Below are positions 22,464 through 37,805 of a stretch of 64,000 bases of DNA, in pieces. The stretch is taken from assembly GCA_030697165.1 (NCBI GenBank), contig JAUYQQ010000001.1, positions 248,001 through 312,000 of the forward strand. Reading direction: 5' to 3'. The first letter of the stretch is position 1. Each line of letters opens with the position of its first letter. The notes under the pieces are model-generated. The model did not search any database. It saw nothing but the letters and a program-made list of their open reading frames with translations, and was not told where the DNA came from. Both the position numbers and the translations under genes were made by a program. This DNA comes from Acidobacteriota bacterium (GTDB lineage: Bacteria > Acidobacteriota > Vicinamibacteria > Vicinamibacterales > UBA2999).

Positions 22464-25400
22464 TCATCGTTTGCCGACCTTCTTGGATTGGATGTTGCCC
22501 GCCGTGATCACGCCGTCAACCGTCGCCACGACCGCGCCCTGCGGGCTGCGGATCGTGATCGCGAACGTGTCACGGCTCTTGCCGGGTTCGCCCCGGTCCT
22601 CCGCGCGCGCCTCGAACGTGTAGCCCGACGCGCCGTTCCACGCGCCGGCGCCCGTGATCACGACCGAGTCCACCGTCACGCCCGCCTTCGGCCCGCCCTT
22701 CGGCTTGCCGGGGCCGAAGGCTGGGTCGTCGTAAAAGCGGACCGATTGAATCGCGGTGGCCTCGAACCGATCGGTCCGCGTCACCTTCTTCACCACCGGC
22801 GGGGCCGCCTTGCCCTTGCCGGCGCTCTTGCCGGGCGACGTCACGCTCTCGGTGGTCGTCACCTCGTAGCGCAGACGGTCGTTCGGTCGCGCCCCCCGCA
22901 GTCCTTCAGAGGCGTGCAGGTGAAACTCGTGATCCGCATCAGCCGTCTCGATCCGTCCGTTGCCGATGATCCGGCCATCGAGCGGCACGGGTTCGACCAC
23001 CGCAAACGGCGAGAAGTGTGTGGTCGTACCGCAGACGGTGGACGTGTCGCGCCGGTTCGACGTGGTGATGTCGGTCCACGCCGATCCGGTGTGGTGGAAC
23101 AGGCGCTGGTCGCTCGTCTTGAAGGCCAACGGGTCGTAGGCGACGCACACTTCGACGCCGCCCGTGAACTGCGCTGTGGTCGCGATGTCGTAGATCAGGG
23201 GCGGCTCCGCCATCACGAAGCCGGCCGGCAGTGCCGGCGCGGCGGGTTCCGGCTCCACCGTCGTCTGGCCCGCGACCGTCACCTCCCTGAACCTGAGCGT
23301 CACGCCGCCCTGGGAGAGGACCAGAGGGTTGCCGGTCGGCGTGTTCATCGCCTGCAGGTCAACCGTCTCGGTGACGGTGATGACTTCGTCGATCTCAATC
23401 ACCACGGGTCCCATCACGTCCACCGTGTCGGTGACGGTAACGACCTCGTCGACGGTGATCATTGCGGATGGCCTCACGTCCACAGAGTCGGTCACCCAAA
23501 TCTGTTCATTCACCGCGATCTCGACGATCGCCAACGCCACCTGCCAGGTGAACGTCGCACTCGATGTCGCCAGGCCGTCGTAGAGAATCACGGTCACCGG
23601 ATAGGTGCCGGTGGCGCTCCCGAGCGTGCCGGAGATCACTCCGGTGTCGGCGGCAATCGACAAGCCGGGCGGCAGGCCCACGGCCGTGAAGAACAGCTCG
23701 GCCTCGGGATAAGCCGTGAAGGTTACCGGCAGCGACACCGTGCCGTGCACGACGTCGACCTGGGCCTCGGGTGCGGTGAGCGTCGGCGGCGGCGGCAGAA
23801 TGGTCACGGTGAACGTCCGCGTGGTGCGGTCCTGTCCGCCGTTCTCGGTGCCGCCGTTGTCGGCCACCTCCACCATCACGGTAGCCACCCCAACGTTGTT
23901 CCGGACGGGCGGCGTGAACCTCACCTCCCCGAACGTGGCGGTGACCGGTCCTGTCACCGATGGACCCGAGCTCACGGCCGTCACCGTGACGACCTGACCC
24001 AGCTCGTTCGCCGGTCCGGCCGCGAGGCCGGCCAGCGGCACCACGACCTGCGTGCCGCCAACCACCCGAACGTTCGCGGGTTGATCCAGTCGCGGCGGGT
24101 CGTTCACGGGCGCGACCGTGACGAGGAACTGATCCTGCACCGTGAACTCGCCGTCGCTCACGACGACGGTGACAGTAGCGACACCGAAAGCGTCGGGCAC
24201 CAGCGTGAGCGTCAGGGTGCCGGTGCCGGCCACGCTGTCGACGGATACCGTCACGACATCTGGGTTGTCCGACGACGCCGTGTACGTCAGCCCGTCGACA
24301 TCTTCTGCATCCTTGAACACGCCGTCGAGAGTGACGACGAACGGTAGCGCGTCCTCGAGCAGCGACACGTCGGCAACCGGCGAGGCCACGAACGGCGGCT
24401 GGTTCACCAGGGTCACGACGAACGTCACCTGCGCCCGCGTCGTCCCGCCGCGGCCGTCGTCGGCCTCCAGTTCGATCTTCTCTGAACCCTCGAAGTCGGC
24501 CTCCGGCGTGTAGGTCAGCTGATCGCCGGCCAGTGTTGCCGCGCCGAACTCGGGCCCGACAGTGAGGCGGTAGCTCAACGTATCGCCATCCGGGTCGACG
24601 GCCGCGAGGGTGACCGATACCGGACCACTGCCGGACACCTCGACCGTGAGGCTCTCGAACACGGGGGGATCGTTCGTCTTCGTCACCTGGACCCGGATCC
24701 GCCCGGTCGCCACGCCGCCGGCGCCGTCGTCGGCCCTCACCACAATCGTGTCGATGCCGTCGAACCCGGCGTCCGCGGTGTACACCACCGTGTCGTCCGC
24801 GATCTCGGCGGTGCCGTGCGCCGGGCCCTCGTCGACCGCATAAGCCAGCTTGTCGCCGTCCACGTCGGTGGCGCCAATCGCGACCGTGAGCGGCACGCCG
24901 GACACGGCGTTGACGAGTTGGTCGGGCACCGCCGGTTCGTCGTTCACCGAATGCACGGTGATGTGCACGGTGCCCCACGCCGTGGCGTCGTGACCGTCGT
25001 CGATGCGGTACTGGAACGAGGCCGCGCCGTGGAAGTCCTGCGCCGGCGTGAACACGATGACGCCGGCCTCGAACGTGACGGTGCCGTTAACCGCGGAGTC
25101 GCTCACGGCGACGATCGTCAGCGTGTCGCCGTCCGCGTCGGTGTCGTTGGCCAGCAGCGTCGCGGGCACGATCTCGAGGGGCGTGTCCTCGTCGGTCTCG
25201 ATGGGGTCGTCCACCGCCACCGGCGCGCGGTTGAGGTTGGCCTCGGTCACGACCTCGACGAAGTTGTTGCCGGGGACGGGATCCGTCATCCAGATCGCCA
25301 TCGACGCGACCTCGAGTTGCGCACTGCTGACGCGGGTCCCGGCGACCGACGCCACCTGCTCGAAGGTGACCGTCCACGTGTCGCCTTCCGCGAGGCTCGG

Positions 25401-28400
25401 CACGCTGCAGAACCAGGACTGCTGCCCACTGGCCGCGCCCGACGCGGAACACATCGGCGTCGACGCCGTTCCCGAACCATCGAAGGTCAGGGCAAGCGCG
25501 CTGCTCACCGACGCGTCGGGGCCGTGGTTAGTCACGACGGCCGTGAACGTCACGGACTCACCCACGCGATACGACGCGTGCGAGGCCTCGAGCGACACTG
25601 CCAAGTCCGACACGACCAGCGGGATCGTGACCGGAGCGGTCACGGCATTGTTGCCATAGTCGGGATCGATCACGGCGGCGAAGGCGTGCGCCGACAGTTG
25701 GAACGTGCGCGGGGACTCGGCCGCGAGGGGCGTGGCCGGCAGCTCGAACATCGCCTCGTCGCCGGGGGCCATGGCCGGCACCGTGCAAGAGGCCTGGCCA
25801 CCGCCGCCAGACATGTCGCACCAGGTGCCAGCGGGGCCCGCCCTGACACGCGCAATGCCGATCGTCGCCGTACTTGACGCGAGTGCCGAGAACCCCAACG
25901 ATGAAGCCGCCGCTGGCCCGTCGTTTTTCACGAGGACGACGACGAGCGGGATACCCGACTCCGGATCCCGCTCCACCCCGACGATCGTCACCTGCAGGTC
26001 GGCCATCTCGCCGGCCGGCGTGGTGATCACGACTGTCGCCGACGCCGTGCCGCCCAGCCCGTCGCTGATCGCGTAGGCGAAGCTGTCGGCGCCGTTGTAG
26101 GTCATCGACGTCGGCGTGTAGGTGATCGACGACCCTGCAATGGTGGCCGTGCCCTTCGCTGGCGCCTGCGTGATGCCGGTGATCGTCACCGGGTCGCCGT
26201 CGGGATCACGGTCGTTGACCAGTACGTCGATCGTGACCGGCCCGCCCTGCGTCACCGCCGCGTCGTCCGCGGCCACCGGGTCCTCGTTCACCAGCGTCAC
26301 GGTAATGACGACGTTGGCCGGCGCCGAGCCGCCGCGCCGGTCGCTCGCGTCATAGACGAACGACGCGGTGCCATGGAACACCGGGTCCACTGTAAAGTCG
26401 ACGTGGCCATCCTCGCGCAGCACGGCGAGACCGTTGGTCGAGCCGCCCACCGCGATGATGAACAGGTCGTCGCCGTCCGGATCAGAGTCGTTGGCCAGCA
26501 ACTGCGACGCCGGAATCGTGAACGTCGGCGTGTTCCGGTCGATCTCGAGCGCATCGTCCACGGCGACCGGTTCCCGGTTCATGTCGTCGACAAACCACCA
26601 GAACGTGATCGGGGTATCGCGCACACCGTCGGAGACCGTCACCGTCACCTGGAACGAGCCGGACGATTCCATGGTCAGCGTGCCGCTGATGACGCCGGTG
26701 TTCGGGGCGATCGCCAGCCCAGGCGGAAGCCCCGTCGCCATGAAGGCGACAATCTTGCCCTCGCCGACCGACCAGGTCAGCGGCAACGAGATCGTCTCGC
26801 CCTCTTCGCTATGCTGGTCGCCGGGATGATCGATCGACGGCGGCGGCGCACCGGGCTGCACGGCCCATGTGAACGATGCGCTCGACTGCGCCTCCGGATC
26901 GCGCACGGTGACTGTCACCGGGTAGCTCCCCGCGGATCCGTACGGCAACGTGCCACTGATCGCGCCCGTTCCCGGATCGATGCCGATCCCGCCCGGCAAA
27001 CCCGTCGCACTCCACGAGAGCGGATCGCTCTCGGGATCGCTGGCCTCGAGCGCCAGCGTGACGATCTCGCCCTCAGTATGTATCTGGTCGCCCGGTCCCA
27101 CTATCGCCGGCGCCTGGTTCGGCGCGCCGCACTGGCGCAGCGATGGGCCAGTGGCTGCATTGGCGATCTCCGTGGCGGTCAGCACCCGCTTGTAGAGCGC
27201 CACATCGTCGATCGCGCCCGCGAAGAAGTTGGCGTACGCCACGCTCCACCCGGCCTGCGATGCGCCGATCACCAGCGGCTCGCGCTCGAAGTCGCCGTTG
27301 GACATCGTCCACCCGTCATGGAGCGCCGCCGAAGCATCGAGGACACCATTCACATAGAGCCGCGCCTGCAGGGCCGGCCGGTCGATCACGAGCGCCGCGT
27401 GGTGGAAGGCACCGTCGGCCACCGGCGTCGTGCCCTCGATCACGACCCACGGGGTGCCGTCTGCACCGTTGTAGCCGTTGTCGTGCATCGAGGCGCGGAC
27501 GACGCCGCCCTGCACGTACAGATACCAGGCCGCGTAGCCCTGAGGGGACCCACAGCACGGCGCATTCGCTGTATCGTTCTGCGAGGCGATCACCTGCGCC
27601 GCCGTGCCGCTGACGACGCTGGTCGCAAACCACACCGCGACGCTCGTCGAGCCGGTGCCGGGCCAGTAGTGTTCCGGGTAGCCGTTATCCACGTGGAGGT
27701 AGCCCGTCGCACCGTCGAATACGAACGCCTGCCCCACCGCGCCGGGACCGTAGCTGACGCCGCCGACCGCCGTGCCGTGATACGCCGGACCCGACCCGTA
27801 GTTGAGCGACGTGCCGTCGCCAGGCCACCACGCCGTGCGTCCCGACACCGGCAGCGCGCAGGTCGCCGCGTTGATGCGGGCCGTGACGACGATGCTGTTG
27901 TCGGCGAGGCCGGCGTCCTCTTCCGTGCTGGACACCACCACGGGAAGCTCGGAGATCCCGGTGGTGAGCCCGCTCACGTTGATCGTAATCGTGCCGGTGG
28001 CCCCGGACGCGAGACGGTCCTGCCCCACGCCACCGCCGCGCACGCGCCACGCATCGAACGTCAACACACCCGCGGCGTTGCTGATCGGCGCCGGGTTGAG
28101 GCTACTGGCCGTGGCCCCGGCCGGCAGCGTCACGCGGACGCGGACGCCCGAGGCTTCCCGCGCCGCGGCGTTGGCGACGTCCAGCGTGTAGGTGACCTGC
28201 GTCCCGGCCACCGTCGGATTCGGCGAGGCATTGCCCGTCACGCGCAGGTCGACCGGCGGCTCCCCACCAGCCCCACCACCCGGCCACGGCGACGAGATGC
28301 GGATCCGGTTCGACGTCCAGTCGTAGTACGCAATATGCGGGACGCCGGCCGCATCGAACCGCAGGTACGGCGGCTTCACCCACTCCACTCCGCTGAACCC

Positions 28401-29462
28401 TGGACGCACCACGCGGCTCTCGACCCACGCGCCCGACGCGCGCGAGGTGTAGTACAGGCCCTGGCCATAGCGCCAGTAGGCCACCGCCGGCGCGCCAGAG
28501 GGATCCAGCTGCAGGCTCAGGCCATAGGTCACGCGAGAAGCGTCGGCATTGTCCACGTGCGCCCACGTCGCGCCATCGTCGGACGACCGGAAGTAGCCGA
28601 GCACGCCGCGATCGAGTTCGCCCGTGAAGTCCAGCCCGCGCGCGACGATGTGAACCGTGCCATTCGGCCCAGGTTGGATCGCCACTTCGTCGCTGTAGTA
28701 GTTGACGGTGGCCACCTGGGCCGGTGCAGTGCCGGGCCGCATGTACATCACGTGCCCGTTGACGTTGATGTAGGCGACGTGGGCGCGGCCGTCGGCGTCC
28801 ATGGCCAGATCGAACCCGCGGATGAGCTGATCAGCGGTGAGCGACTGCCCCTCGAACCTAAAAGGCCCGGAGTTGGTGCAGTGGCCGCGCGCCGTGACCC
28901 GGTACGGCCAGGCTTGCCCCGGACCGCCGTCCACCTTGTACCGCACGTAGATGCATTCCTGGTGGTTGCCGACATGCTCGCCCGTTGACACCAGGGCGCC
29001 TGGGGTACCGTCGGCATACGCGCGCAGGTCAGCGCGGTAGGTGTGATATGTCAGGTTGCTGCTGTTGCCGCCCACCATGAATAGATAGGGCCGGCCATCG
29101 TTCCCCACCGCAAACTCGTGCCCGCTGCCGTTCTGACTGGCAGTCCCCCAGAAACCCTGGCTGCCCCACTGGCGCTTCAGCCAACCGTCCGCCAGCTTCT
29201 CGCTCCAGTAGGTATCGTTCGAACCGCCGCATCCCTCGACTTGGGTCCAGCCCACCATCGGCGTGCCGTCGGGAGCGAAGTCGAATCCATTCACCCTGGG
29301 ATAGCGGGTGCAGTTCGGCTGCCCCAGCGTGACGTCCGCGACGTCGTCGGCCAGCCAGATCACACCCGGCGCCTGCGCCGAGGGAAGGGCCCCGGTCGAG
29401 AGAATGAGAGCGGCGACGACCAGCGCCGCGCCAACGAGGGTGCGGGTCGCAACAGGCGGCAC
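22464..29462 (-). CDS. Giant secreted multidomain protein (sialidase-like propeller, DUF11, LamG, Ig and cadherin-like repeats)
   Basis: About 2332 aa from GTG 29462, which has AGGGGAG just upstream; a TTG at 29498 is an alternative start. A signal peptide is followed by: a propeller-like region (about 30-395); a DUF11 repeat (about 405-520); a LamG/concanavalin-like domain (about 540-780); two putative-Ig domains (about 790-960, motif ATGLPPGL-I.P.TGVISGTL); cadherin-like repeats with calcium motifs NDSDPDGDD and DPDGD (about 970-1170); two DUF11-type domains (about 1180-1440); more cadherin-like repeats (about 1450-1880); an Ig domain (about 1920-2010); a repetitive VTDTVDV/VTETVDL segment (about 2015-2075); and a C-terminal module. 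It is probably a surface adhesin or glycan-binding protein. No PEP-CTERM or LPxTG anchor was seen. Confidence 0.85.
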   Translation of the reverse strand: MPPVATRTLVGAALVVAALILSTGALPSAQAPGVIWLADDVADVTLGQPNCTRYPRVNGFDFAPDGTPMVGWTQVEGCGGSNDTYWSEKLADGWLKRQWGSQGFWGTASQNGSGHEFAVGNDGRPYLFMVGGNSSNLTYHTYRADLRAYADGTPGALVSTGEHVGNHQECIYVRYKVDGGPGQAWPYRVTARGHCTNSGPFRFEGQSLTADQLIRGFDLAMDADGRAHVAYINVNGHVMYMRPGTAPAQVATVNYYSDEVAIQPGPNGTVHIVARGLDFTGELDRGVLGYFRSSDDGATWAHVDNADASRVTYGLSLQLDPSGAPAVAYWRYGQGLYYTSRASGAWVESRVVRPGFSGVEWVKPPYLRFDAAGVPHIAYYDWTSNRIRISSPWPGGGAGGEPPVDLRVTGNASPNPTVAGTQVTYTLDVANAAAREASGVRVRVTLPAGATASSLNPAPISNAAGVLTFDAWRVRGGGVGQDRLASGATGTITINVSGLTTGISELPVVVSSTEEDAGLADNSIVVTARINAATCALPVSGRTAWWPGDGTSLNYGSGPAYHGTAVGGVSYGPGAVGQAFVFDGATGYLHVDNGYPEHYWPGTGSTSVAVWFATSVVSGTAAQVIASQNDTANAPCCGSPQGYAAWYLYVQGGVVRASMHDNGYNGADGTPWVVIEGTTPVADGAFHHAALVIDRPALQARLYVNGVLDASAALHDGWTMSNGDFEREPLVIGASQAGWSVAYANFFAGAIDDVALYKRVLTATEIANAATGPSLRQCGAPNQAPAIVGPGDQIHTEGEIVTLALEASDPESDPLSWSATGLPGGIGIDPGTGAISGTLPYGSAGSYPVTVTVRDPEAQSSASFTWAVQPGAPPPSIDHPGDQHSEEGETISLPLTWSVGEGKIVAFMATGLPPGLAIAPNTGVISGTLTMESSGSFQVTVTVSDGVRDTPITFWWFVDDMNREPVAVDDALEIDRNTPTFTIPASQLLANDSDPDGDDLFIIAVGGSTNGLAVLREDGHVDFTVDPVFHGTASFVYDASDRRGGSAPANVVITVTLVNEDPVAADDAAVTQGGPVTIDVLVNDRDPDGDPVTITGITQAPAKGTATIAGSSITYTPTSMTYNGADSFAYAISDGLGGTASATVVITTPAGEMADLQVTIVGVERDPESGIPLVVVLVKNDGPAAASSLGFSALASSTATIGIARVRAGPAGTWCDMSGGGGQASCTVPAMAPGDEAMFELPATPLAAESPRTFQLSAHAFAAVIDPDYGNNAVTAPVTIPLVVSDLAVSLEASHASYRVGESVTFTAVVTNHGPDASVSSALALTFDGSGTASTPMCSASGAASGQQSWFCSVPSLAEGDTWTVTFEQVASVAGTRVSSAQLEVASMAIWMTDPVPGNNFVEVVTEANLNRAPVAVDDPIETDEDTPLEIVPATLLANDTDADGDTLTIVAVSDSAVNGTVTFEAGVIVFTPAQDFHGAASFQYRIDDGHDATAWGTVHITVHSVNDEPAVPDQLVNAVSGVPLTVAIGATDVDGDKLAYAVDEGPAHGTAEIADDTVVYTADAGFDGIDTIVVRADDGAGGVATGRIRVQVTKTNDPPVFESLTVEVSGSGPVSVTLAAVDPDGDTLSYRLTVGPEFGAATLAGDQLTYTPEADFEGSEKIELEADDGRGGTTRAQVTFVVTLVNQPPFVASPVADVSLLEDALPFVVTLDGVFKDAEDVDGLTYTASSDNPDVVTVSVDSVAGTGTLTLTLVPDAFGVATVTVVVSDGEFTVQDQFLVTVAPVNDPPRLDQPANVRVVGGTQVVVPLAGLAAGPANELGQVVTVTAVSSGPSVTGPVTATFGEVRFTPPVRNNVGVATVMVEVADNGGTENGGQDRTTRTFTVTILPPPPTLTAPEAQVDVVHGTVSLPVTFTAYPEAELFFTAVGLPPGLSIAADTGVISGTLGSATGTYPVTVILYDGLATSSATFTWQVALAIVEIAVNEQIWVTDSVDVRPSAMITVDEVVTVTDTVDVMGPVVIEIDEVITVTETVDLQAMNTPTGNPLVLSQGGVTLRFREVTVAGQTTVEPEPAAPALPAGFVMAEPPLIYDIATTAQFTGGVEVCVAYDPLAFKTSDQRLFHHTGSAWTDITTSNRRDTSTVCGTTTHFSPFAVVEPVPLDGRIIGNGRIETADADHEFHLHASEGLRGARPNDRLRYEVTTTESVTSPGKSAGKGKAAPPVVKKVTRTDRFEATAIQSVRFYDDPAFGPGKPKGGPKAGVTVDSVVITGAGAWNGASGYTFEARAEDRGEPGKSRDTFAITIRSPQGAVVATVDGVITAGNIQSKKVGKR

Positions 29463-29469
29463 GGCTCCC

Positions 29470-30828
29470 CTAGTTCTTGCGATAGACCCGGACGTCAACG
29501 GGACGCTGGCCCTTGACGCCCACCAGTTCCATCACCTGTCTGAACGTCGCAACCAGCGTGTAGCCGTCCGGCGCCGGATCGCCAGGCATCACCAGCACCA
29601 CCGTGCCGCTGGGCACTGCACCTGGATCACCCTTGTCGCCCTTCTGGCCCTGCGGTCCTGCCTGCCCCTCGGGTCCGGGCGGGCCCTGCGGTCCTGCGGC
29701 CCCCTGGGGGCCCGGCGGACCACCTAGGCCGACCGTCGATGAGCCGTGCGGGACGACCGTCACCGTCACGGAGTCCGACACTTGCGCGCCGTCCAACCCG
29801 ACCACGGTTGCGATAAATGTATGGGTGCCCAAGCCGAGCTGCGCCGACACGGACCAGGAATTCGATACCACGGCGCCGTCCTTCGACCAGTAGATGGCGG
29901 ACGCGCCCGTGAAGCTCGCCTGGCGCGCGAAGGTGGTCCAGAAGCTGGCCGAGAGCGGATTCGACGGGTCGCTCGGCTGCACGAACGCGGTCAGCGTTTC
30001 ATCCGGGCCAGCGTCCACGGTGGCCGGCCCGCTGCCGCCGCCGCCCGCCGGGTCGACCAGCCAGCGGAAGTTGTCGAGGAGCACGGTGGAATCGTCGATG
30101 CCGTCGCCGGAGTCCCAAATCAAGAAGTGCAGCGTCACCGCCTCGAGTGCCGTGACCGCGGCCGATGCGGTCAGCCATCCGGTGGCGCCTTGCTGCTCGA
30201 AACCGGTGCCGGTCAGTAGGGACGACCCCTGCGTATGGGCGAACATGGCCGTGTTCGACGTGACCGGCGAGCCGGTGTCGTCGACGCTGATCGTCGTAAA
30301 CGTGCCGGCCCGCTCCAGGATGATGGCCATCGCGTCGCCGAACGACGTGCACACATACTTCGGGTAGTCAGCCGAGTAGTAGTTGAAGTCGATCGCCAGC
30401 CCGTTGACGTTGCCCGGCGCTGTGAGCGTGACGGCCACATGGGTCTGATCCCGCGGCGCGCCAGCCACGGTGCTTGGGCACTTGGAAGATTGCACCGGGA
30501 AGCCGGGCGGAACGACGCCGGCCACATTGTGGTTGACGGTCTTGTTGTAGCCGTTATCGCCGGGCGCGGCCGCTCTGCCCGTTGAGAGGATGGCGATGGA
30601 CGGGCCGGCCAGCGGCAGCACGGAGCCGAACTTGGCCCGGGCGGCCGACGCGCCGGTCAACACCGGCGCGCTGATCTCGGCCACCAGCACCGCGGTGGTG
30701 GCCGGAATGTCCATGGCCTGGACCAGGTGCGAGGCACTCGCCGACTGGCCGGCCGCGCCGGATGGGTGCCACAACATCAGCAACGTCAGACCTATGACGG
30801 CCCACTTCACATCTCTTGCTGGCAACAT
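29470..30828 (-). CDS. Choice-of-anchor L-like secreted protein with collagen-like tract
   Basis: A 452-aa exported protein. ATG 30828 was chosen because GAGGAGA lies 5 nt upstream and a signal peptide follows (residues about 6-28). A choice-of-anchor-like beta domain occupies about 50-270, with [22 protein letters not shown] and [19 protein letters not shown]. It is followed by an Ig/PKD-like domain (about 280-370), a short collagen-like Gly-X-Y tract (about 375-415) and a C-terminal domain ([15 protein letters not shown]). First gene of the minus-strand surface-protein operon; the next gene begins 7 bp after its stop. Probably an exported surface or matrix protein. Confidence 0.8.
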
Positions 30829-30929
30829 TCGGTCTCCTCGTCGCGCCGGAAGACACGACCTCCCACTAGAGGCGGGCATAGGTTGGTTTTGCTCACGCGG
30901 GCTGGGAATGGCAGAATCTTGGGCGATTC
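30829..30929. promoter_or_regulatory. Shared divergent promoter region (surface operon / sigma-CHAT operon)
   Basis: This 101-bp gap separates the start codons of the minus-strand surface-protein operon and the plus-strand sigma-anti-sigma-CHAT operon, so both promoters must lie in or near it. The only clear element is the GAGGAGA ribosome-binding site of the minus-strand gene (about 30833-30840). A GGGAAT box (about 30904-30909) resembles an ECF-type -35 element for the sigma gene, but no convincing -10 partner was found. Autoregulation by the encoded sigma factor is plausible but not shown. Confidence 0.45.
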
Positions 30930-31448
30930 ATGTCCGGTGCCGACCCCCACGACATCGAGGCGTTCGTGCGCCGCTACGCGCGGCTGGTGCGGACGGTCGC
31001 CATGCGGGTGGGTGGCCCCCGGGGCCGGGAAATCGCCGAAGACGTGGAACAGCGCGTGTTCCTCAGCATCTGGCGGCAGATGGAGCGTGAGCAAACCATT
31101 ACCAACCCGTCCTCTTATGTTTACAGGTGCGCCGTCCGGGAAACGGTCCGGATGCTCACCGAGACCGACGAACCCGCCGAGGCGGATCCGGTCGAGCTCG
31201 AGCAGCAACCTGGCGGCGACACGCCCGCGGATCACCTCGCGCGGCGCGAACGGGCGCGGCTGACCGCGGAGGCGTTGCGCGAGATGGCGGCTGACCGGCG
31301 GCGCGCGGTGCAAGCGCACCTGGCCGGGTTTTCGGTGAATGAAACAATGACGATGTACGAGTGGTCGTATCAACGCGCGCGCAACCTGGTCGCCAGGGGC
31401 ATGGCCGACCTGCGTGCCGGACTGCGAAAACGAGGAATCGATGGCTGA
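30930..31448 (+). CDS. ECF-type RNA polymerase sigma factor
   Basis: A 172-aa protein with sigma region 2 (about 10-75: FVRRYARLVRTVAMRVGG, AEDVEQRVFLSIWRQ, SYVYRCAVRE) and region 4 (about 115-170: LREMAADRRRAVQAHLAGFSVNE, SYQRARNLVARGMADLR). The linker carries an acidic stretch rich in E, D and P. Its stop overlaps the anti-sigma start by 8 bp, and a CHAT protease gene follows. Sigma factors of this type, paired with a zinc-finger membrane anti-sigma and TPR-CHAT proteins, are found in Acidobacteriota. Targets probably include its own operon and perhaps the divergent surface operon (inference). Confidence 0.88.
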   Translation: MSGADPHDIEAFVRRYARLVRTVAMRVGGPRGREIAEDVEQRVFLSIWRQMEREQTITNPSSYVYRCAVRETVRMLTETDEPAEADPVELEQQPGGDTPADHLARRERARLTAEALREMAADRRRAVQAHLAGFSVNETMTMYEWSYQRARNLVARGMADLRAGLRKRGIDG

Positions 31449-32043
31449 CGTTCATGCCTTCCGGTCGCCTCATGTCGATGAGGCGGCGTTCGAGCGGCTC
31501 GTGCTCAACGAGGTCGGCGCTGCGGAGCGAGCGACGCTGTTCGAACACATCACCGGCTGCGCCTCCTGCGCCCGGGTCTGGCGGGGGTTGCTCGAGCTGC
31601 GCCGAGAGGCGGAAACCGAGGGCCTGATTCCAGCCGCGGTTGCGCCGGTCCCCATCTGGCGGTCGCCCATCGTCGCCCTGGCCGTGGCCGCCACGCTGGT
31701 CGTGGTGATCGGCGGCGTCGTCCTTAATCGCCAGACGAGCGACGATTCAACCACGCTGCGCAGTGGCACAACCGTGGGCGTGGAGGAACTGTCGGCGGTG
31801 GCAGGAGCCGGTGGCACGCCGACGCTCTCCTGGTCACCGGTGCCGGCCGCCACCAGCTATCGCCTTGATGTCTTTTCAGAAGATGGACAACTGGTGTGGA
31901 CCCGCGACGTCACCGCGCCTCCGCTCTCGTGGCCGGACGACGTGCCCCGGTCAGCCGGCCTGTACCGATGGCGGGTTGAAGCGCTGGCAGCCAACGCGGT
32001 GGTCGCCCGCTCCCGGCTGGCCGAGCTCGAGGTTTCACGGTGA
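31441..32043 (+). CDS. Membrane-bound anti-sigma factor with zinc finger and periplasmic C-terminal domain
   Basis: A 200-aa protein starting at ATG 31441 inside the sigma gene's end. The N-terminus carries a zf-HC2-type anti-sigma motif, H36-x3-C40-x2-C43 (HITGCASC), expected to bind the sigma factor in the cytoplasm. One transmembrane helix follows (about 77-97, ALAVAATLVVVIGGVV). The outer part contains a beta-sandwich-like domain (about 125-200: LSWSPVPAATSYRLDVF, GLYRWRVEALA, ARSRLAELEV) that resembles the extreme C-terminus of the CHAT protein encoded next. The stop overlaps the CHAT GTG start (GTGA). The periplasmic domain is the likely signal input. Confidence 0.85.
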   Translation: MADVHAFRSPHVDEAAFERLVLNEVGAAERATLFEHITGCASCARVWRGLLELRREAETEGLIPAAVAPVPIWRSPIVALAVAATLVVVIGGVVLNRQTSDDSTTLRSGTTVGVEELSAVAGAGGTPTLSWSPVPAATSYRLDVFSEDGQLVWTRDVTAPPLSWPDDVPRSAGLYRWRVEALAANAVVARSRLAELEVSR

Positions 32044-34904
32044 CGTGGCGGCAACGGGTCGGGACCGTCACCGGGGTCCTGGTCGTCGTCCTGGCCCTCG
32101 CAAGTGGTGGCGCGGCGGCGCAGTCCGCCGTCACCGCGGACGAGCGGACGGCTTCGCCGTATCACCTGAGCCAGGGCTCCCGCAGCATGGTGGAACGGGC
32201 CGAGCGCCACGAGCGGCTGGCCCGCGTGGCCCAGGCCGGGGGCGACCACGCGCAGGCCGCGCGGCACCTCGCCAAGGCGTGCTACGCGCGTTCGGAACTG
32301 ACGATCGATGTCGGGTTGAGCGCGCCGGCCTGCCAGCAGGCACGCACGCTCGCGCGCGTCCACAAGGTGGTCGATGCCGAGGTGTCGCTGCTGGCGACCG
32401 AAGGCAACATGCGGGCCTGGAGCCTGGACATCCCAGGCGCCGTGAATCGCCTGACGGCGGCCATCGCGCGCGGCGCCGAACTCGATCCCAGCCGGCCGGA
32501 AGGTGGCCCGCTGAACGATGCGCACTTCACCTTCGGCGCCATCATGATCGAGGCGGGCCAGTATGACGCCGCGCACCGCGAGCTGACCTTCGCGCGCGAC
32601 AATTGCACCAAGTCCGGCAACCCCACGTGCCTGGCCTACGCGGAGACCTGGCTGTGCCGCCTCCATACCCAACTGGGCAATTACGGCGCGGCGCGCGCGG
32701 CGTGTCAGGCGGCACAGGCGGCGGCCGATGGCGACGTCTTCGTGCTGATGAACCTCGGCTGGATGCGGGCCGACCTCGAAGCCGCATTGGGACGCGACGA
32801 CGCCTCGCTCGCGGCGTGGCTGGCCGCGTGGCACACGGCGCAGGTCCGCGGCGGCGAGATGCTGTGGCCGACGCTGATGAACAGCATCGCCGACACGCTC
32901 GTCCGGCTCGGCCGCCTCGACGAGGCCGACGTCTGGCAGCGAAAACTCGAGCAGGCCAACGCCTCAGGTTTCTTCCCCGACAGCTACCTTCCGCAAATGG
33001 CGATGCGCCGCGGGCAGATCGCCATGGCGCGCGGCCGGCCCGACGAGGCCGCCACGGCATTCACGGCGGCCGCGGAGTCGTCCATGTACGAAGTGATGGT
33101 CGGGGCCCAGTACGGGCTGGCCGCGGCGCGCCACGCACGCCGCGACTTCGCCGGCGCCGGCGTCGCGCTGGAGCAGGCGATTACCCGCATCGAAGCCGGC
33201 CGCACCAGCATCACCGGCGCCACCTTGCGCGCCAGTTATCTGTCACTGCACGCCAAGGCGTACCGCGAGCTGATCCGCGTGCGCTGGGAAGCAGAGGGAC
33301 CGGCGGCGGCCGCGGCCGCTCTCGAAATTGCCGAAGCCGGGCGGGCCCGCGCCCTGCTCGATGCGCTGTCATCGGCACAGGTAGCCGGCGCCGCGGCGCC
33401 GACATTGAGCGCGGCGGCCGTACAAGCCACCCTCGGCCAGGACGATGTGCTCGTCGAGTACGTCTCGGCCGACAACCTGCTGCTGGCGATCACCGTGACC
33501 CGCGATCACCTCGCGATGACCGCGCTGCCGCTCGCCGGTACCGCCACCGATCTGGGTCGGCGCATCGACTTCTTCAGCGCGTTGGTGCAGGAGAGCAAGG
33601 ACGAGACCCGGCTCGGTCCCACCGCAAGCCGGCTCTACAACGACGTCCTCGCGCCGGCGCTGGCCGGCCTGCCGTCAACCGCACGCAACCTGATCATCGC
33701 CGCCGATGGTCCGCTGCATCGATTGCCCTTCGACGCGCTCGGCCATCCCGTGCCGCTGATCGAGCGGTGGAACATCGTGACGGTGCCGTCCGCCACTGTG
33801 CTCGCCAACCGCGTTCGTCGCGACCAGCACACCGGGGCCGCGCTGGTGGTCGCCGCACCGGCCACCACGGCCGCCCTCGATCCGCTGCCGGCAGCGGCGG
33901 CAGAAGCCGCGGCCATCCGCCGGCGCGTCGGCGGTGAAGTGGCTGAGCTGACTGGCACCGAGGCCACCAAGACGCACCTGGCCGCCCACGGGCTGTCCCG
34001 TTTTGCGGTCCTGCACTTCGCCAACCACGCGGTGGTGGACGAGGAGCGCCCGCTGCGGTCGGCGCTGATGCTCGCCGGCGACGACCGGTGGACGGCCGAA
34101 GAAATCTACCGGCAGAAACTCGGAGCCGACCTGGTGGTGCTGTCGGCGTGCAGCACGGCAGCGGGCGCGCCGTCACCGGGTGAAGGCGTCATGAGCCTGT
34201 CGCGAGCGTTCCTCTATGCCGGTGCCGCCGCCACGCTGGCAACCCTGTGGGACGTGCCCGACGCGCCGGGCCCGATCTTCGCCGACGTGCTGTATCGCGA
34301 GCTGGCGGCCGGCCAGCCACTCGGGGCGGCAGCGGCCAACGCCCGCCGCGAGCTGCGTCGGCGCGGCGCCCCGCCGCGGGCGTGGGCGGCCTACGTGTTG
34401 ACCGGCAGTCCAGGCGCGCAGGTGGGCATCACGGCGCGGCCGGCCCCCTGGCATTACTCCGCATCTACCGCCGGCAACCTGGCCGTGATGCTGTTACTGG
34501 CAAGCGTGGTGGTGTTCTTTACGACGCCTGGCAGGACGTGGGTCGTGACGTCCGCGGCCGGGGCTGCCGCCGCTGGCGTGGCGGTCATCCTCGTGATGCC
34601 CTGGCCGGCAGGGAGCCTGGGGTTGCAATCCGGTGGCGAAGTCGATCGTGGCGCCACCGGGGCGTCCATCGAGCCGATCGTCAGCCATGACCGGTTGGTC
34701 TGGATGCCGGTGCCGTCAGCCGACGAGCACATCGTCGAGGTGTTCGACGCCACCGGGCTGCCCATCGGCCCGGCGACGACCACGCCATCTCCCTTCGCGA
34801 TCCCGGCGACGACCGCCGACGGGTGGATTCGCGTCGAGGCCCGGCGGCAAGGCGAGTTGCTCGCACGCTCGGCCCTGGTGCGACTGGCCGGGCGTCCTCG
34901 CTGA
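32040..34904 (+). CDS. TPR-CHAT domain protease, exported/membrane-anchored
   Basis: A 954-aa protein. Residues 1-27 form a signal peptide (VGTVTGVLVVVLALASGGAAA). TPR-like helical repeats follow (about 60-440) and then a CHAT (caspase-like) domain (about 470-790) with the catalytic His in LHFANHAVV (H663) and Cys in LSACSTAAG (C704), plus GVMSLSRAFLYAGA and TLWDVPD. Two hydrophobic helices (about 812-830 and 837-857) precede a C-terminal domain (about 880-954: LVWMPVPSADEHIVEVFD, GWIRVEARRQGELLARSALV) similar to that of the anti-sigma. With a cleaved signal peptide, both the CHAT domain and the C-terminal domain would face the periplasm. Its target is unknown; the anti-sigma is an obvious candidate. 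Confidence 0.87.
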   Translation: MTWRQRVGTVTGVLVVVLALASGGAAAQSAVTADERTASPYHLSQGSRSMVERAERHERLARVAQAGGDHAQAARHLAKACYARSELTIDVGLSAPACQQARTLARVHKVVDAEVSLLATEGNMRAWSLDIPGAVNRLTAAIARGAELDPSRPEGGPLNDAHFTFGAIMIEAGQYDAAHRELTFARDNCTKSGNPTCLAYAETWLCRLHTQLGNYGAARAACQAAQAAADGDVFVLMNLGWMRADLEAALGRDDASLAAWLAAWHTAQVRGGEMLWPTLMNSIADTLVRLGRLDEADVWQRKLEQANASGFFPDSYLPQMAMRRGQIAMARGRPDEAATAFTAAAESSMYEVMVGAQYGLAAARHARRDFAGAGVALEQAITRIEAGRTSITGATLRASYLSLHAKAYRELIRVRWEAEGPAAAAAALEIAEAGRARALLDALSSAQVAGAAAPTLSAAAVQATLGQDDVLVEYVSADNLLLAITVTRDHLAMTALPLAGTATDLGRRIDFFSALVQESKDETRLGPTASRLYNDVLAPALAGLPSTARNLIIAADGPLHRLPFDALGHPVPLIERWNIVTVPSATVLANRVRRDQHTGAALVVAAPATTAALDPLPAAAAEAAAIRRRVGGEVAELTGTEATKTHLAAHGLSRFAVLHFANHAVVDEERPLRSALMLAGDDRWTAEEIYRQKLGADLVVLSACSTAAGAPSPGEGVMSLSRAFLYAGAAATLATLWDVPDAPGPIFADVLYRELAAGQPLGAAAANARRELRRRGAPPRAWAAYVLTGSPGAQVGITARPAPWHYSASTAGNLAVMLLLASVVVFFTTPGRTWVVTSAAGAAAAGVAVILVMPWPAGSLGLQSGGEVDRGATGASIEPIVSHDRLVWMPVPSADEHIVEVFDATGLPIGPATTTPSPFAIPATTADGWIRVEARRQGELLARSALVRLAGRPR

Positions 34905-35039: not shown

Positions 35040-37805
35040 TTAGAACCGATAGATCAGCGAGAAGCGGTAGCGGCGCGGCTGCAGGAACGAGCCGCGCGCG
35101 CTGGCCTTGCCGAAGTTGTTGACCGCGGTCGTGCACGCGGCGGTGGCGGTGTTGCCACACCAGGTGACGTTGTTGCTGATGATCTTCTCCTCGTTGTTGA
35201 AGAGGTTGAAGGCCTCCGCCCGGAATCCGGCCTGGTGGCTGCCGGCGACCTTCCAGGTCAGCTCGGTCGAGAAGTCGGTGACGTTCTCCATGCCGTCAAG
35301 AACGTCGGAGCCCAACTCGTTGTAGTAGTACGTCGCGGTCGGACCGGCGTTGTTCTGCGTGCCGGGCGTCAGGACGTTGACGGTTCGCTCTTTCTGGTAG
35401 CGCCGCTTCGAAATGAAGTCGGTCAACATGCCGACCGTGACATTGACCGGCCCGAACCCGCGCACGTAGGCGGCGTTCAGCTTGAAGTTGTGCGGACGGT
35501 CGTAAATCGGCGAGCCGTACTTGTTGGCGCCGTTGTTGACTTCCGCGCACGGGATGATGCCGCCGTTCCCGACCGTGAGGTCGGCGGTGGTCCGGCATTG
35601 GGCGTCGAGGTAGTCCCCGAGGGTGGTGAAGTTGTTGGCGAAATGGTTGCCGCGGGTCTGGGAGTAGGTGTAGCTGCCCTGGGCGTTCCAGTTGTTGGCA
35701 AACCGCTTTTCGAAGGTGAGCTGAACGCCGCGATACTTGCGCTCGGCGGGTTCGTAATTGACGACCTGGCGCAGGATCGTGTTGTCGGGGTTGAAGGTGC
35801 GGACGTCGTCGATCAGGTTGTCCCACTTGCGGGTGATGAACCGCACGCCGGCACCGAGCGACTGGCCAAACTGCCGTTGGAAGCCGATGGTGCCCTCATC
35901 CATGTGATACGGCTCGAGGTCGGTGTTCGGCCGGAAGGTCGAGCCACTCAGCTGTACCCGATTCGAGAACACATACGCGCTGCCGTTCCAGACGAAGTTG
36001 TCGTAGTTGGTCTGCTGCGGCACGCTGGCGAAGGCGTCGGAGAAGCCCTGGATGATGCTGGCGTAGTAGCGTCCGTAGCTGCCGGTCACCAGCGTCTTGC
36101 CGTCGCCGGTGATGTCGTAGGTGCCCGAAACACGCGGCGTGAAGACGGCGGTATCGACCGTGTCGGAGCCGACGTCGCTGGTGCCGGTCTGCAGCTCGTA
36201 GCGCACGCCGGCTTCGAGCGAGATGCGATCGCTCAGCTCGAACTTGTCGCGCGCGAAGACCGCGTGAATCTTGCCGGTGGAGGTCGACGGGCCGGCATCG
36301 AAGTCGCGCCGCGACTGCGGCACCATGGCGCCGGTGGCCTGGACGTAGGATTCGGCGAAGTAGAGCTGCCGGTTCGGGTAGTCGAACTGGGAGCTGGACT
36401 CGAGGTTCTGGAAGTCGTACCCGACCTTGATGTTGTGCGACCGGCCGCCGGGCGACAGGAACCAGTTGCTCGCGACGTTGAACTGCTGCCGCGGGCGCTC
36501 GACGAAGCCCGAGAACGTCGCGCCGTTGTAGTACTTGCTCTCGGCGACGTTGAAGATTGGCGCGTTCGCCAGGCGGCCGCTGGCCTCGAACGTGTCGACC
36601 GTGATCAGCGAGGCATAGTTCGCGAACGCGGCCTCCATGGACCAGTTGTTGCGCACCACGCCGCTCCACTGCGCCGCCCAGTTGGAGGCGCTCTGGCTCT
36701 GTCCGGTCAGGGATTCGCGTTCGGCGGCGGCGCCCCAATAGTCGATGACGAACCCGTCGGAAGGCGACCGGTAATACTTGACCCAGGCCGTGTGTCCCTC
36801 GGCGAGCTGCACGGTGCCGCGGATATTCGAGAACTTGTCCTCGCGCACCTGCTGGAAGTCCTCGGGGATCTGGCCGACGGTCTGCCGCTGCGGCGAGGTG
36901 CTCTGGGCCAGCTCGTAGGTACCGAAGAACCACGCCCGGTCCCTCCAGATCGGCCCGCCGCCGGTGAACGAATACACCGGATTGACCTGGTCGAACTTGA
37001 CCCGTGCGAGCGACGCGCCGGTCACCTCGCTCTTGGTCGTGTTCTGCTCGTCCCACTCATCGTTCAGGAAGATGTACTTGGCCGACCCCTCGAAGCGGTT
37101 CGTGCCCGACTTGGTGACGACATTGACAATCGCGCCCTGCGCGCGGCTGTACTCAACGCCGGCCGCCGAGGTGTACACGGACACTTCCTGGATGGCTTCG
37201 AAATTCAGGTTGGTGCCAAAGGTGCCGGTGGTCGGATCGGTCGTGTCGACCGCGTCGATGATGAACAGGTTGTTGCTCGTCAGCGCTCCGAGCGCATTGA
37301 CGTTGCCGGTGCCCACCACGCCGGGGGCCGCGCCGATCAGCGACTGATAGTTGCGGCCGACCGGCAGCTTGTCGAACTCTTCGCGGCGCACCGTCGTGGT
37401 CGCCGTCGCGGTCGTCGTGTCGACGATCGGGGTGCTCCCGGTCACGACCACGGTGTCCGTCAGGGCGCCCACGGTCAGCGTCAAGGGCAGGTCGGTGTTC
37501 TTGCTGGTCTCGACGACGTTATTGGAGGCCTCGGCAGTGTTGAAACCCTGCAGGGTCGCAATCACCCGGTACTGGCCAATCGGCACCGCCGGAAACAGGT
37601 AGCGGCCGTTCCCATCAGTCACCGTCGTTCGCATGAACCCGCGGTCCTGGCTGGTGACGGTGACCGTTACGCCGGGCAGAACCGCGTTTGAGCTGTCCAT
37701 CACGGTGCCGGAGATGGTGCCGGTCTGCGCAGGCTGCGCCCAGCCGGTCAGCGGCATCAGGGCCAGCAGGCCCAACAACAACCCTACGCCTCGTAGCAAT
37801 CTCAT
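35040..37805 (-). CDS. Oar-like TonB-dependent receptor with carboxypeptidase-regulatory domain
   Basis: A 921-aa outer-membrane protein with a signal peptide (about 1-23, cleavage after GWAQ). An N-terminal carboxypeptidase-regulatory beta-sandwich follows (about 28-110: GTISGTVMDSSNAVLPGVTVTV), then a plug (about 120-230: KLPVGRNYQSLIGAAPGV and NLFIIDAVDTTDP) and a barrel ending in Phe (RRYRFSLIYRF). This is the Oar/SusC-like type greatly expanded in Acidobacteriota, thought to import large polymers or peptides with TonB energy. AGGGA lies 4 nt before ATG 37805. No SusD-like partner or hydrolase is adjacent. Confidence 0.9.
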   Translation of the reverse strand: MRLLRGVGLLLGLLALMPLTGWAQPAQTGTISGTVMDSSNAVLPGVTVTVTSQDRGFMRTTVTDGNGRYLFPAVPIGQYRVIATLQGFNTAEASNNVVETSKNTDLPLTLTVGALTDTVVVTGSTPIVDTTTATATTTVRREEFDKLPVGRNYQSLIGAAPGVVGTGNVNALGALTSNNLFIIDAVDTTDPTTGTFGTNLNFEAIQEVSVYTSAAGVEYSRAQGAIVNVVTKSGTNRFEGSAKYIFLNDEWDEQNTTKSEVTGASLARVKFDQVNPVYSFTGGGPIWRDRAWFFGTYELAQSTSPQRQTVGQIPEDFQQVREDKFSNIRGTVQLAEGHTAWVKYYRSPSDGFVIDYWGAAAERESLTGQSQSASNWAAQWSGVVRNNWSMEAAFANYASLITVDTFEASGRLANAPIFNVAESKYYNGATFSGFVERPRQQFNVASNWFLSPGGRSHNIKVGYDFQNLESSSQFDYPNRQLYFAESYVQATGAMVPQSRRDFDAGPSTSTGKIHAVFARDKFELSDRISLEAGVRYELQTGTSDVGSDTVDTAVFTPRVSGTYDITGDGKTLVTGSYGRYYASIIQGFSDAFASVPQQTNYDNFVWNGSAYVFSNRVQLSGSTFRPNTDLEPYHMDEGTIGFQRQFGQSLGAGVRFITRKWDNLIDDVRTFNPDNTILRQVVNYEPAERKYRGVQLTFEKRFANNWNAQGSYTYSQTRGNHFANNFTTLGDYLDAQCRTTADLTVGNGGIIPCAEVNNGANKYGSPIYDRPHNFKLNAAYVRGFGPVNVTVGMLTDFISKRRYQKERTVNVLTPGTQNNAGPTATYYYNELGSDVLDGMENVTDFSTELTWKVAGSHQAGFRAEAFNLFNNEEKIISNNVTWCGNTATAACTTAVNNFGKASARGSFLQPRRYRFSLIYRF

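Follow-up and report, generated by a model that had tools for sequence, protein, structure and literature searches.

A predicted signalling module is encoded in a stretch of 64,000 nucleotides (hereafter the window) from an Acidobacteriota bacterium of the order Vicinamibacterales (UBA2999; assembly GCA_030697165.1, contig JAUYQQ010000001.1, positions 248,001-312,000 of the forward strand). Unless another locus or contig is named, all coordinates below are positions within this window, and the piece under study spans 30829-34904. It contains an operon of three overlapping genes, all on the + strand, encoding in this order an extracytoplasmic function (ECF) sigma factor, a membrane anti-sigma factor and a protease that combines tetratricopeptide repeats (TPR) with a CHAT domain. 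The gene order, the domains, the related C-terminal domains of the anti-sigma and the protease, the catalytic dyad, the conserved linkage and the exchanged sigma half are directly supported. Taken together, they can be read, with about an even chance of being right, as an envelope or surface-signalling module in which the breakdown of the anti-sigma starts with a cut by an exported CHAT protease. The topology, which derives from hydropathy, is something that we infer, as are the contact, the cleavage, the signal, the ligand and the regulon.

Separase and caspases are relatives of the CHAT proteases, few of which, to our knowledge, have a known trigger and substrate. The module suggests a little-studied bacterial way to sense events outside the cell. 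If the reading given above is true, the anti-sigma encoded next door is an obvious candidate substrate for many Acidobacteriota CHAT proteases, and a step known from a single CRISPR system would turn out to be a more general principle that operates outside the cytoplasm. The core claim is testable with three genes and one point mutant, and the exchanged sigma half provides a natural experiment on the rewiring of a sensor to a new output.

Gene order and predicted products

The sigma gene (172 aa; 30930..31448) overlaps the anti-sigma gene (200 aa; 31441..32043) by 8 bp (31441-31448), and the latter overlaps the CHAT gene (954 aa; 32040..34904) by the tetranucleotide GTGA (32040-32043). The sigma factor matches Pfam Sigma70_r2 (PF04542) with 40 bits for a cut-off of 24, and NCBIfam sigma70-ECF (TIGR02937) over residues 8-163 with 46.4 bits for a cut-off of 42.9. 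Pfam gave no region 4 match in this protein and only a weak match to HTH_28 (0.064). The same genome carries 28 region-2 matches in 5.39 Mb, and sigma factors 44-48% identical to that of the window adjoin other CHAT genes (loci L043, L057 and L152 of the survey described below).

The second gene encodes, judging from its sequence features, the predicted anti-sigma of the adjoining sigma factor, which it would bind and inhibit. Its product has the layout of class I anti-sigmas, i.e. an Hx3Cx2C motif (H36-C40-C43; 31546..31569) followed by a single membrane helix predicted from hydropathy (residues 77-95; 31669..31725; a helix at residues 76-95 in a low-confidence part of the model), and its gene lies beside a sigma gene. 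The motif is also present in the one ortholog, at locus L035. The zf-HC2 profile scores 15.2 bits, under its cut-off of 22.2, and the protein is therefore called zinc-finger-like only. The C-terminal part (residues 118-200; 31792..32040), predicted to be extracytoplasmic, was modelled by AlphaFold2 as a seven-strand sandwich with a block predicted local distance difference test (pLDDT) of 73-89 for residues 121-200. The best fibronectin type III (FN3) chain in VIA-align 2 was 3l5i (Z 11.4, root mean square deviation 1.8, 85 residues aligned), and Foldseek matched chains titled FN3 at E 4e-4 to 7e-4. According to this model, the outer domain of the anti-sigma has an FN3 fold.

The CHAT protein starts with a signal peptide-like N-terminus (32040..32123), made of a hydrophobic segment (residues 7-25) followed by AAA-QS. 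It then comprises a TPR superhelix (about residues 50-448; 32187..33383), a CHAT domain (PF12770, 4e-53, residues 527-790; 33618..34409), two membrane helices predicted from hydropathy (810-828 and 835-853; 34467..34598) and an FN3-like C-terminal domain (about residues 880-950; 34677..34889). Every Pfam match to TPR lies below the cut-off; the model of residues 51-380 is helical (block pLDDT 60-90), and the best 50 matches of a Foldseek fold search with the CHAT model are TPR and other helical-repeat chains. In an alignment of 101 CHAT domains (that of the window and 100 others), His663 (codon 34026..34028) and Cys704 (codon 34149..34151) are both present in 99; the two domains lacking the full dyad belong to the same genome as the window (L055 and L056). 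With its dyad intact, the CHAT protein is a predicted peptidase. Hydropathy also predicts that it lies outside the cytoplasm: if the signal-like segment is exporting, the TPR-CHAT part and the C-terminal domain would both be on the outer side, and the loop between the two helices bears several arginines in the orthologous protein, as expected for an inner loop. No PDB sequence matched the CHAT protein at E<=0.01, and it is not Csx29 according to NCBIfam NF041237 (15.5 bits for a cut-off of 300).

Much of this had been anticipated in a preliminary description made from the DNA letters and their open reading frames (ORFs). The three genes and both overlaps were exact to the base, H663 and C704 had been correctly picked as catalytic residues, and the signal-like start, TPR-like repeats (below the Pfam cut-off), CHAT domain, two helices and C-terminal domain were all recovered by Pfam and hydropathy, which predicts the protease on the extracytoplasmic side, as proposed, and not in the cytoplasm. 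For the anti-sigma, the zinc-finger motif, the single helix and the outer beta domain (FN3 by model) stand, the finger itself scoring under the zf-HC2 cut-off. The statement that the three genes must act together was too strong when drawn from gene overlap alone; the comparative data now support it.

Related C-terminal domains, the ortholog locus and the giant surface protein

The C-terminal domains of the CHAT protein and the anti-sigma, said in the preliminary description to share one pattern, are indeed related in sequence beyond chance. They are 31% identical over 68 residues (BLASTP, single pair, E 3e-6), and the alignment score of the window pair (72) exceeds the maximum of 2000 shuffles (58; z 8.0). 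The three pairs that involve the domains of the orthologs score 84, 76 and 60 for shuffle maxima of 55, 60 and 57 (z 9.9, 8.4 and 5.6). A profile of the two CHAT C-terminal domains has the anti-sigma of the operon as its best non-self match in the genome of the window (E 0.001). When it was run at E<=0.05 on 5777 ORFs from 100 CHAT loci and on the proteins of the window, it retrieved, beyond both CHAT proteins, only the anti-sigmas of the window and of L035 (2e-4 and 1e-3). In the structure models, the anti-sigma domain has an FN3 fold (Z 11.4), and the tail of the CHAT protein, FN3-like by its sequence relation, has strands modelled at a block pLDDT of 43-74. The tail is rare: among the 100 other CHAT proteins, it is present in the ortholog alone, and no further tail exceeds 55 residues. 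Copying from the anti-sigma side would be the simplest, though not a proven, origin of this tail.

Relatives of the CHAT protein were found in 49 of 149 genomes of the order, including that of the window, and a full-length ortholog in only one other; a second search found the ortholog in two of 162 genomes of the order, again including that of the window. The ortholog locus, L035 (which is also L075), is carried by contig JAIQFX010000140.1 of Terriglobia bacterium SRVP_36 (Terriglobia belongs to Acidobacteriota), the genome being from a different family than that of the window. A wide search with two narrow peptide patterns retrieved only this contig and three cyanobacterial CHAT genes, a result that, given the narrowness of the two patterns, does not show absence elsewhere. 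In 396 genomes of the phylum searched at E<=1e-100, the genome of the window alone was recovered (G125, not matched, is presumably outside this sample), and 19 plasmid records have distant CHAT matches, none of which covers over 80% of the query.

The 4-bp overlap between the anti-sigma and CHAT genes is kept in L035. The two CHAT proteins are 48% identical overall, with strong differences between parts: 28% in the TPR part, 70% in the linker that precedes the CHAT domain, 70% in the CHAT domain, 32% in the helices and 47% in the C-terminal domain. Among the large parts, the TPR one is conserved least; it is the probable sensor, ahead of the shared domain, to which the preliminary description had assigned this role. 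The anti-sigmas are 56% identical over their last 78 residues, and BLAST aligns nothing meaningful upstream of these. Between the two sigma factors, BLAST found no match better than E 2; the similarity of each to sequences elsewhere in both genomes is of the ordinary ECF level, and the sigma factor of L035 has a region 4 visible to Pfam, whereas Pfam sees none in that of the window. Hence, orthology is evident for the outer halves but not recognisable for the inner ones, which comprise the sigma factor and the part of the anti-sigma that would bind it, and this indicates that one side was exchanged. From these alignments, the inner half appears to have been exchanged between the two loci, with a break near the membrane helix.

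A giant protein also accompanies the operon. On the opposite strand of the window, a gene with collagen-like repeats (29470..30879, -; Collagen 1.4e-4, below the cut-off) is separated from the sigma gene by a short gap (30880..30929; with translation of the divergent gene beginning at a later ATG near 30829, the gap would be of about 100 bp), and is followed by the gene of a surface protein of 2344 aa (22464..29498, -; start codon provisional). According to Pfam, this giant protein has DUF11, LamG and Big_9/cadherin-like repeats behind an N-terminal domain that bears no Pfam name. At L035, the gene that faces the sigma gene encodes a relative whose N-terminal domain and LamG match those of the window giant (27% and 30%, E 3e-24 and 3e-23). 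The collagen-like gene is missing from the equivalent spot in L035, where the giant gene directly adjoins the sigma gene. The N-terminal domain was detected in two of 149 genomes of the order, which are the two that have this CHAT protein, each time at this locus; if both features were distributed at random, the chance that they meet in the same two of 149 genomes would be about 1 in 11,000, physical linkage apart. The divergent surface gene and the operon thus belong together, as had been suggested in the preliminary description, with the giant protein as a candidate for either the signal or the product of the module. A profile of the window repeats (E<=1e-6) matched only two of the 100 CHAT loci (L035 and L044, each read for at most ~14 kb), so that the link with a giant protein looks specific to this module. 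In L044 (L044:1-3331), the long repeat protein (Big_9-type repeat profile, 1.8e-12) lies beside another sigma/anti-sigma/CHAT set.

CHAT loci in Acidobacteriota

The surroundings of 100 CHAT genes were surveyed. This sample, which is not random, includes 57 loci from the order (two of them, L055 and L056, from the genome of the window, the others being 38 plus 17 hand-picked among the relatives of the CHAT protein) and 43 taken from the best-scoring CHAT matches listed for the phylum, each from a different genome and one of them from the order. Sigma factors were called at a profile E < 1e-15, using profiles seeded by eye on 13 sigma-like proteins, including that of the window, and grown on the same loci, so that 12 seeds match by construction. 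Controls were 20 ten-kb stretches at chosen round coordinates and 53 kb of the window, the one-sequence L072 profile being left out. ORFs were read from stop to stop and helices from hydropathy, so that the classes of hydrophobic terminal segments and of membrane anti-sigma candidates are approximate.

An ECF-type sigma gene is present in 69 of the 100 CHAT loci (30/40, 14/17 and 25/43 in the three parts of the sample) versus one of the 20 control segments (Fisher 7e-8; 6e-5 for the phylum set alone), the controls as a whole holding one sigma gene in 253 kb. Pairs of a CHAT protease and an ECF sigma factor are thus frequent in this sample of the phylum. As an independent check, 68 of 71 sigma ORFs (70 from the loci and that of the window) match NCBIfam sigma70-ECF at E<=0.001, and therefore up to three of the 69 sigma loci may be wrong; Pfam finds region 2 in 45 of these 71 proteins and region 4_2 in 45. 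In L071, which was counted as having no sigma gene, the sigma profiles do match, though more weakly (1.5e-11), and an ORF carries two zinc-finger motifs.

The ORF beside the sigma gene combines a zinc-finger motif with a helix in 39 of the 69 loci and is hydrophobic in another 19. In two of these 19 (L050 and L149), the ORF is the CHAT gene itself; both loci were reassigned to the class without candidate, and a membrane anti-sigma candidate is thus present in 56 of the 69 sigma-holding loci. Among 2006 ORFs of 150-420 residues in the surveyed loci, the motif-plus-helix rule picks out 33, anti-sigmas included. Two loci (L038 and L145) were counted as having no membrane anti-sigma though they have an ORF with an FN3-like domain, and relatives of the window FN3-like domain occur in several surveyed anti-sigmas. 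The recurrence of the module, for which the preliminary description had proposed a survey, is supported, the set recurring in L035. A hydrophobic N- or C-terminal segment is present in the CHAT protein of 46 of the 56 loci that have a membrane anti-sigma candidate versus four of the 13 that have a sigma gene but no such candidate (Fisher 6e-4). These 13 loci could be of the kind described for ECF54 sigma factors (see below). Nine loci with a sigma gene near the CHAT gene have neither an anti-sigma candidate nor a terminal segment (L046, L058, L065, L067, L115, L135, L148, L149 and L154) and are perhaps ECF54-like.

Variant architectures were also encountered. In three loci (L055, from the genome of the window, L074 and L072), a zinc-finger motif, a helix, TPR and a CHAT domain are all found in one protein, encoded directly behind a sigma-like gene. 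The single proteins of L055 and L074 exceed the zf-HC2 cut-off and that of L072 has the motif only; the sigma factor of L072 was found only by the profile made from itself and scores 23.9 bits for a Pfam cut-off of 24. In L055 (L055:3503-7661, contig C4), the sigma gene overlaps the zf-HC2/helix/TPR/CHAT gene, whose product is possibly a pseudo-protease anti-sigma. A four-gene form was seen in L036, L037, L040 and L049, which have a sigma factor, an anti-sigma with an FN3-like end and no zinc-finger motif, and a CHAT protein with a C-terminal helix; a small secreted-looking protein of about 155 residues is encoded between them in L036, L040 and L049, and an ORF in the gap of L037 holds a similar-looking stretch. 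In L043 (6904-7872), the anti-sigma encoded beside the TPR-CHAT gene has TPR repeats in its own outer part, so that the sharing of a domain type by an anti-sigma and its protease may be more widespread.

Proposed mechanism, rival explanations and known systems

For the module of the window, the following sequence of events would be consistent with these data. The anti-sigma would keep the ECF sigma factor at the inner face of the membrane and present its FN3 domain outside. The TPR-CHAT protease would be exported and anchored through its two helices, its own FN3-like domain lying on the same side as that of the anti-sigma, and this would place the protease next to the anti-sigma. The FN3-like domains would hold the two proteins together, most simply by direct domain contact or else through a common partner. 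The signal met by the TPR part may be the giant surface protein, whole or as a fragment; its arrival would lead the H663/C704 dyad to make a site-1 cut in the anti-sigma, on the outer side of the membrane. A site-2 protease of the M50 type, such as the one encoded in the same genome (G000:C2:137512-138765, 3e-72), could complete the breakdown of the anti-sigma and free the sigma factor, which would then activate the operon itself and, probably, the divergent genes for surface proteins. A broader reading is more tentative and somewhat less likely than not to be right: exported CHAT proteases would form a widespread class of site-1 switches in Acidobacteriota, borne by cassettes in which an outer half (the sensor domain of the anti-sigma, the TPR-CHAT protein and the giant protein) is co-inherited and an inner half (the sigma factor and the sigma-binding part of the anti-sigma) is exchanged, the FN3 domain having been copied onto the protease for docking.

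Several observations weigh against site-1 cleavage by the CHAT protease and against its extension to the phylum. The cutting of the anti-sigma is itself what we infer, and the CHAT domain has no confident model (the full-length model, made from a two-row alignment, has a mean pLDDT of 50.2 and is poor in this domain). The FN3-like tail of the CHAT protein is known from two genomes only, and the exchanged half from one pair of loci. FN3-like domains are common: the whole-length anti-sigma profile matches 40 of 149 genomes of the order, several matches to the FN3 part of the anti-sigma are on contigs that have no listed CHAT match, and the next match of the CHAT-tail profile in the genome of the window (E 0.007) is an FN3-like protein with a lipoprotein-like start encoded on another contig. 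In a small tree, the CHAT C-terminal domains are placed among the anti-sigma domains with weak support (0.64-0.71). Two of the three single-protein cases keep the dyad and L055 has lost it. No sigma gene was found in the stretch read at 31 of the 100 CHAT loci, at least six of which have under 1.6 kb upstream; 23 of these 31 also carry a terminal hydrophobic segment, so that export does not single out the sigma-linked CHAT proteins. Lastly, the nearest sigma gene is placed in various ways relative to the CHAT gene: of the 69 loci, 35 have it upstream on the same strand and 18 on the opposite strand, in both cases at no more than 1.5 kb, and the remaining 16 have another arrangement. The protein with the lipoprotein-like start (L181, contig C15) has a single FN3-like domain.

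The CHAT protease might instead be an output of the sigma factor, which would induce it to mature, trim or release the giant protein, the FN3-like tail serving as a membrane hold or as a dock to the giant. The giant protein does accompany this CHAT protein in both genomes, and the 31 CHAT loci that show no sigma gene also speak for this reading. However, the nearest relative of the tail is the anti-sigma domain and not the Ig-like domains of the giant protein, and the zinc-finger/CHAT proteins found elsewhere place the protease inside the inhibitor itself; this explanation is thus possible, if on the doubtful side. The single-protein relative in the genome of the window that has no dyad keeps its zinc finger and its match to the CHAT profile, as would be expected if regulation involved no cutting, the FN3-like tail competing for or stabilizing the anti-sigma and a signal at the TPR part altering the complex. 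As the dyad is intact in the window and in 99 of the 101 domains, and the CHAT domain and the linker preceding it are the best conserved parts of the ortholog (70% each), regulation of this type seems unlikely.

TPR-CHAT proteases are reported to cut gasdermin and Csx30 in defence systems (PMC9729208), and the operon could likewise be a defence or self-killing module in which an attack on the envelope is the signal and the CHAT protease the executioner. This is very improbable, since the CHAT protease is predicted outside the cytoplasm and its conserved neighbour is a surface protein. That unrelated neighbours would have met by chance, their FN3-like domains being parts common in this order, is hardly credible: frequent as these domains are, the linkage is kept in a genome of another family despite the exchanged sigma factor, and sigma genes are near CHAT genes in 69 of 100 loci versus one of 20 controls.

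Site-1 cleavage of an anti-sigma by a CHAT protease has partial precedents. In Craspase, the TPR-CHAT protease Csx29 of a type III-E CRISPR system cuts Csx30, the inhibitor of an ECF-like sigma factor (CASP-sigma/RpoE), according to PMC10028731 and PMC9729208; that a CHAT protease can act on the inhibitor of a sigma factor thus has a published precedent. Both systems group a TPR-CHAT protease, an inhibitor and an ECF-like sigma factor within one locus. They differ in that Craspase is activated by RNA through Cas7-11, and in that the protease of the window begins with a signal-like segment, has membrane helices and an FN3-like domain, and is encoded with an anti-sigma that is a membrane protein. 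Genes for CHAT proteins, subtilases or carboxypeptidases are reported in the context of ECF54 sigma factors, for which proteolysis without anti-sigma was proposed (PMC8999054). Here too a CHAT gene lies near an ECF sigma gene, but the ECF54 group is described as controlled without an anti-sigma, whereas the window has a membrane-bound anti-sigma, and export is predicted for its CHAT protein. With regulated intramembrane proteolysis of anti-sigmas (RseA with DegS and RseP; RsiV, RsiW, RsiP; partly after PMC10028731), the module shares a membrane anti-sigma, a proposed extracytoplasmic signal and an M50 protease in the genome; it differs in that the proposed site-1 protease is of the CHAT family and is encoded in the operon.

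The already known parts are therefore the cutting of a sigma inhibitor by a TPR-CHAT protease and the proximity of CHAT and ECF54 genes, and the apparently new ones are the predicted export of the protease, the FN3 domain that it shares with the anti-sigma and the exchange of one half. Among the literature matches listed, most subscription papers being outside their scope, none was seen to describe a CHAT protease exported alongside a membrane anti-sigma, the single-protein forms, the sharing of an FN3 domain or the exchanged half; the word CHAT is absent from PMC7406223 and PMC8103513.

Cell-surface signalling of the FecA/FecR/FecI type combines a TonB-dependent receptor, an anti-sigma and an ECF sigma factor. 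The window resembles it in having the gene of an outer or surface protein beside an anti-sigma/sigma pair, unlike it in that this partner is a giant repeat protein and that the step is proposed to be held by a protease. On the other side of the operon, the gene convergent with the CHAT gene (35040-37805, -) encodes an outer-membrane barrel protein with an N-terminal carboxypeptidase-regulatory-like domain.

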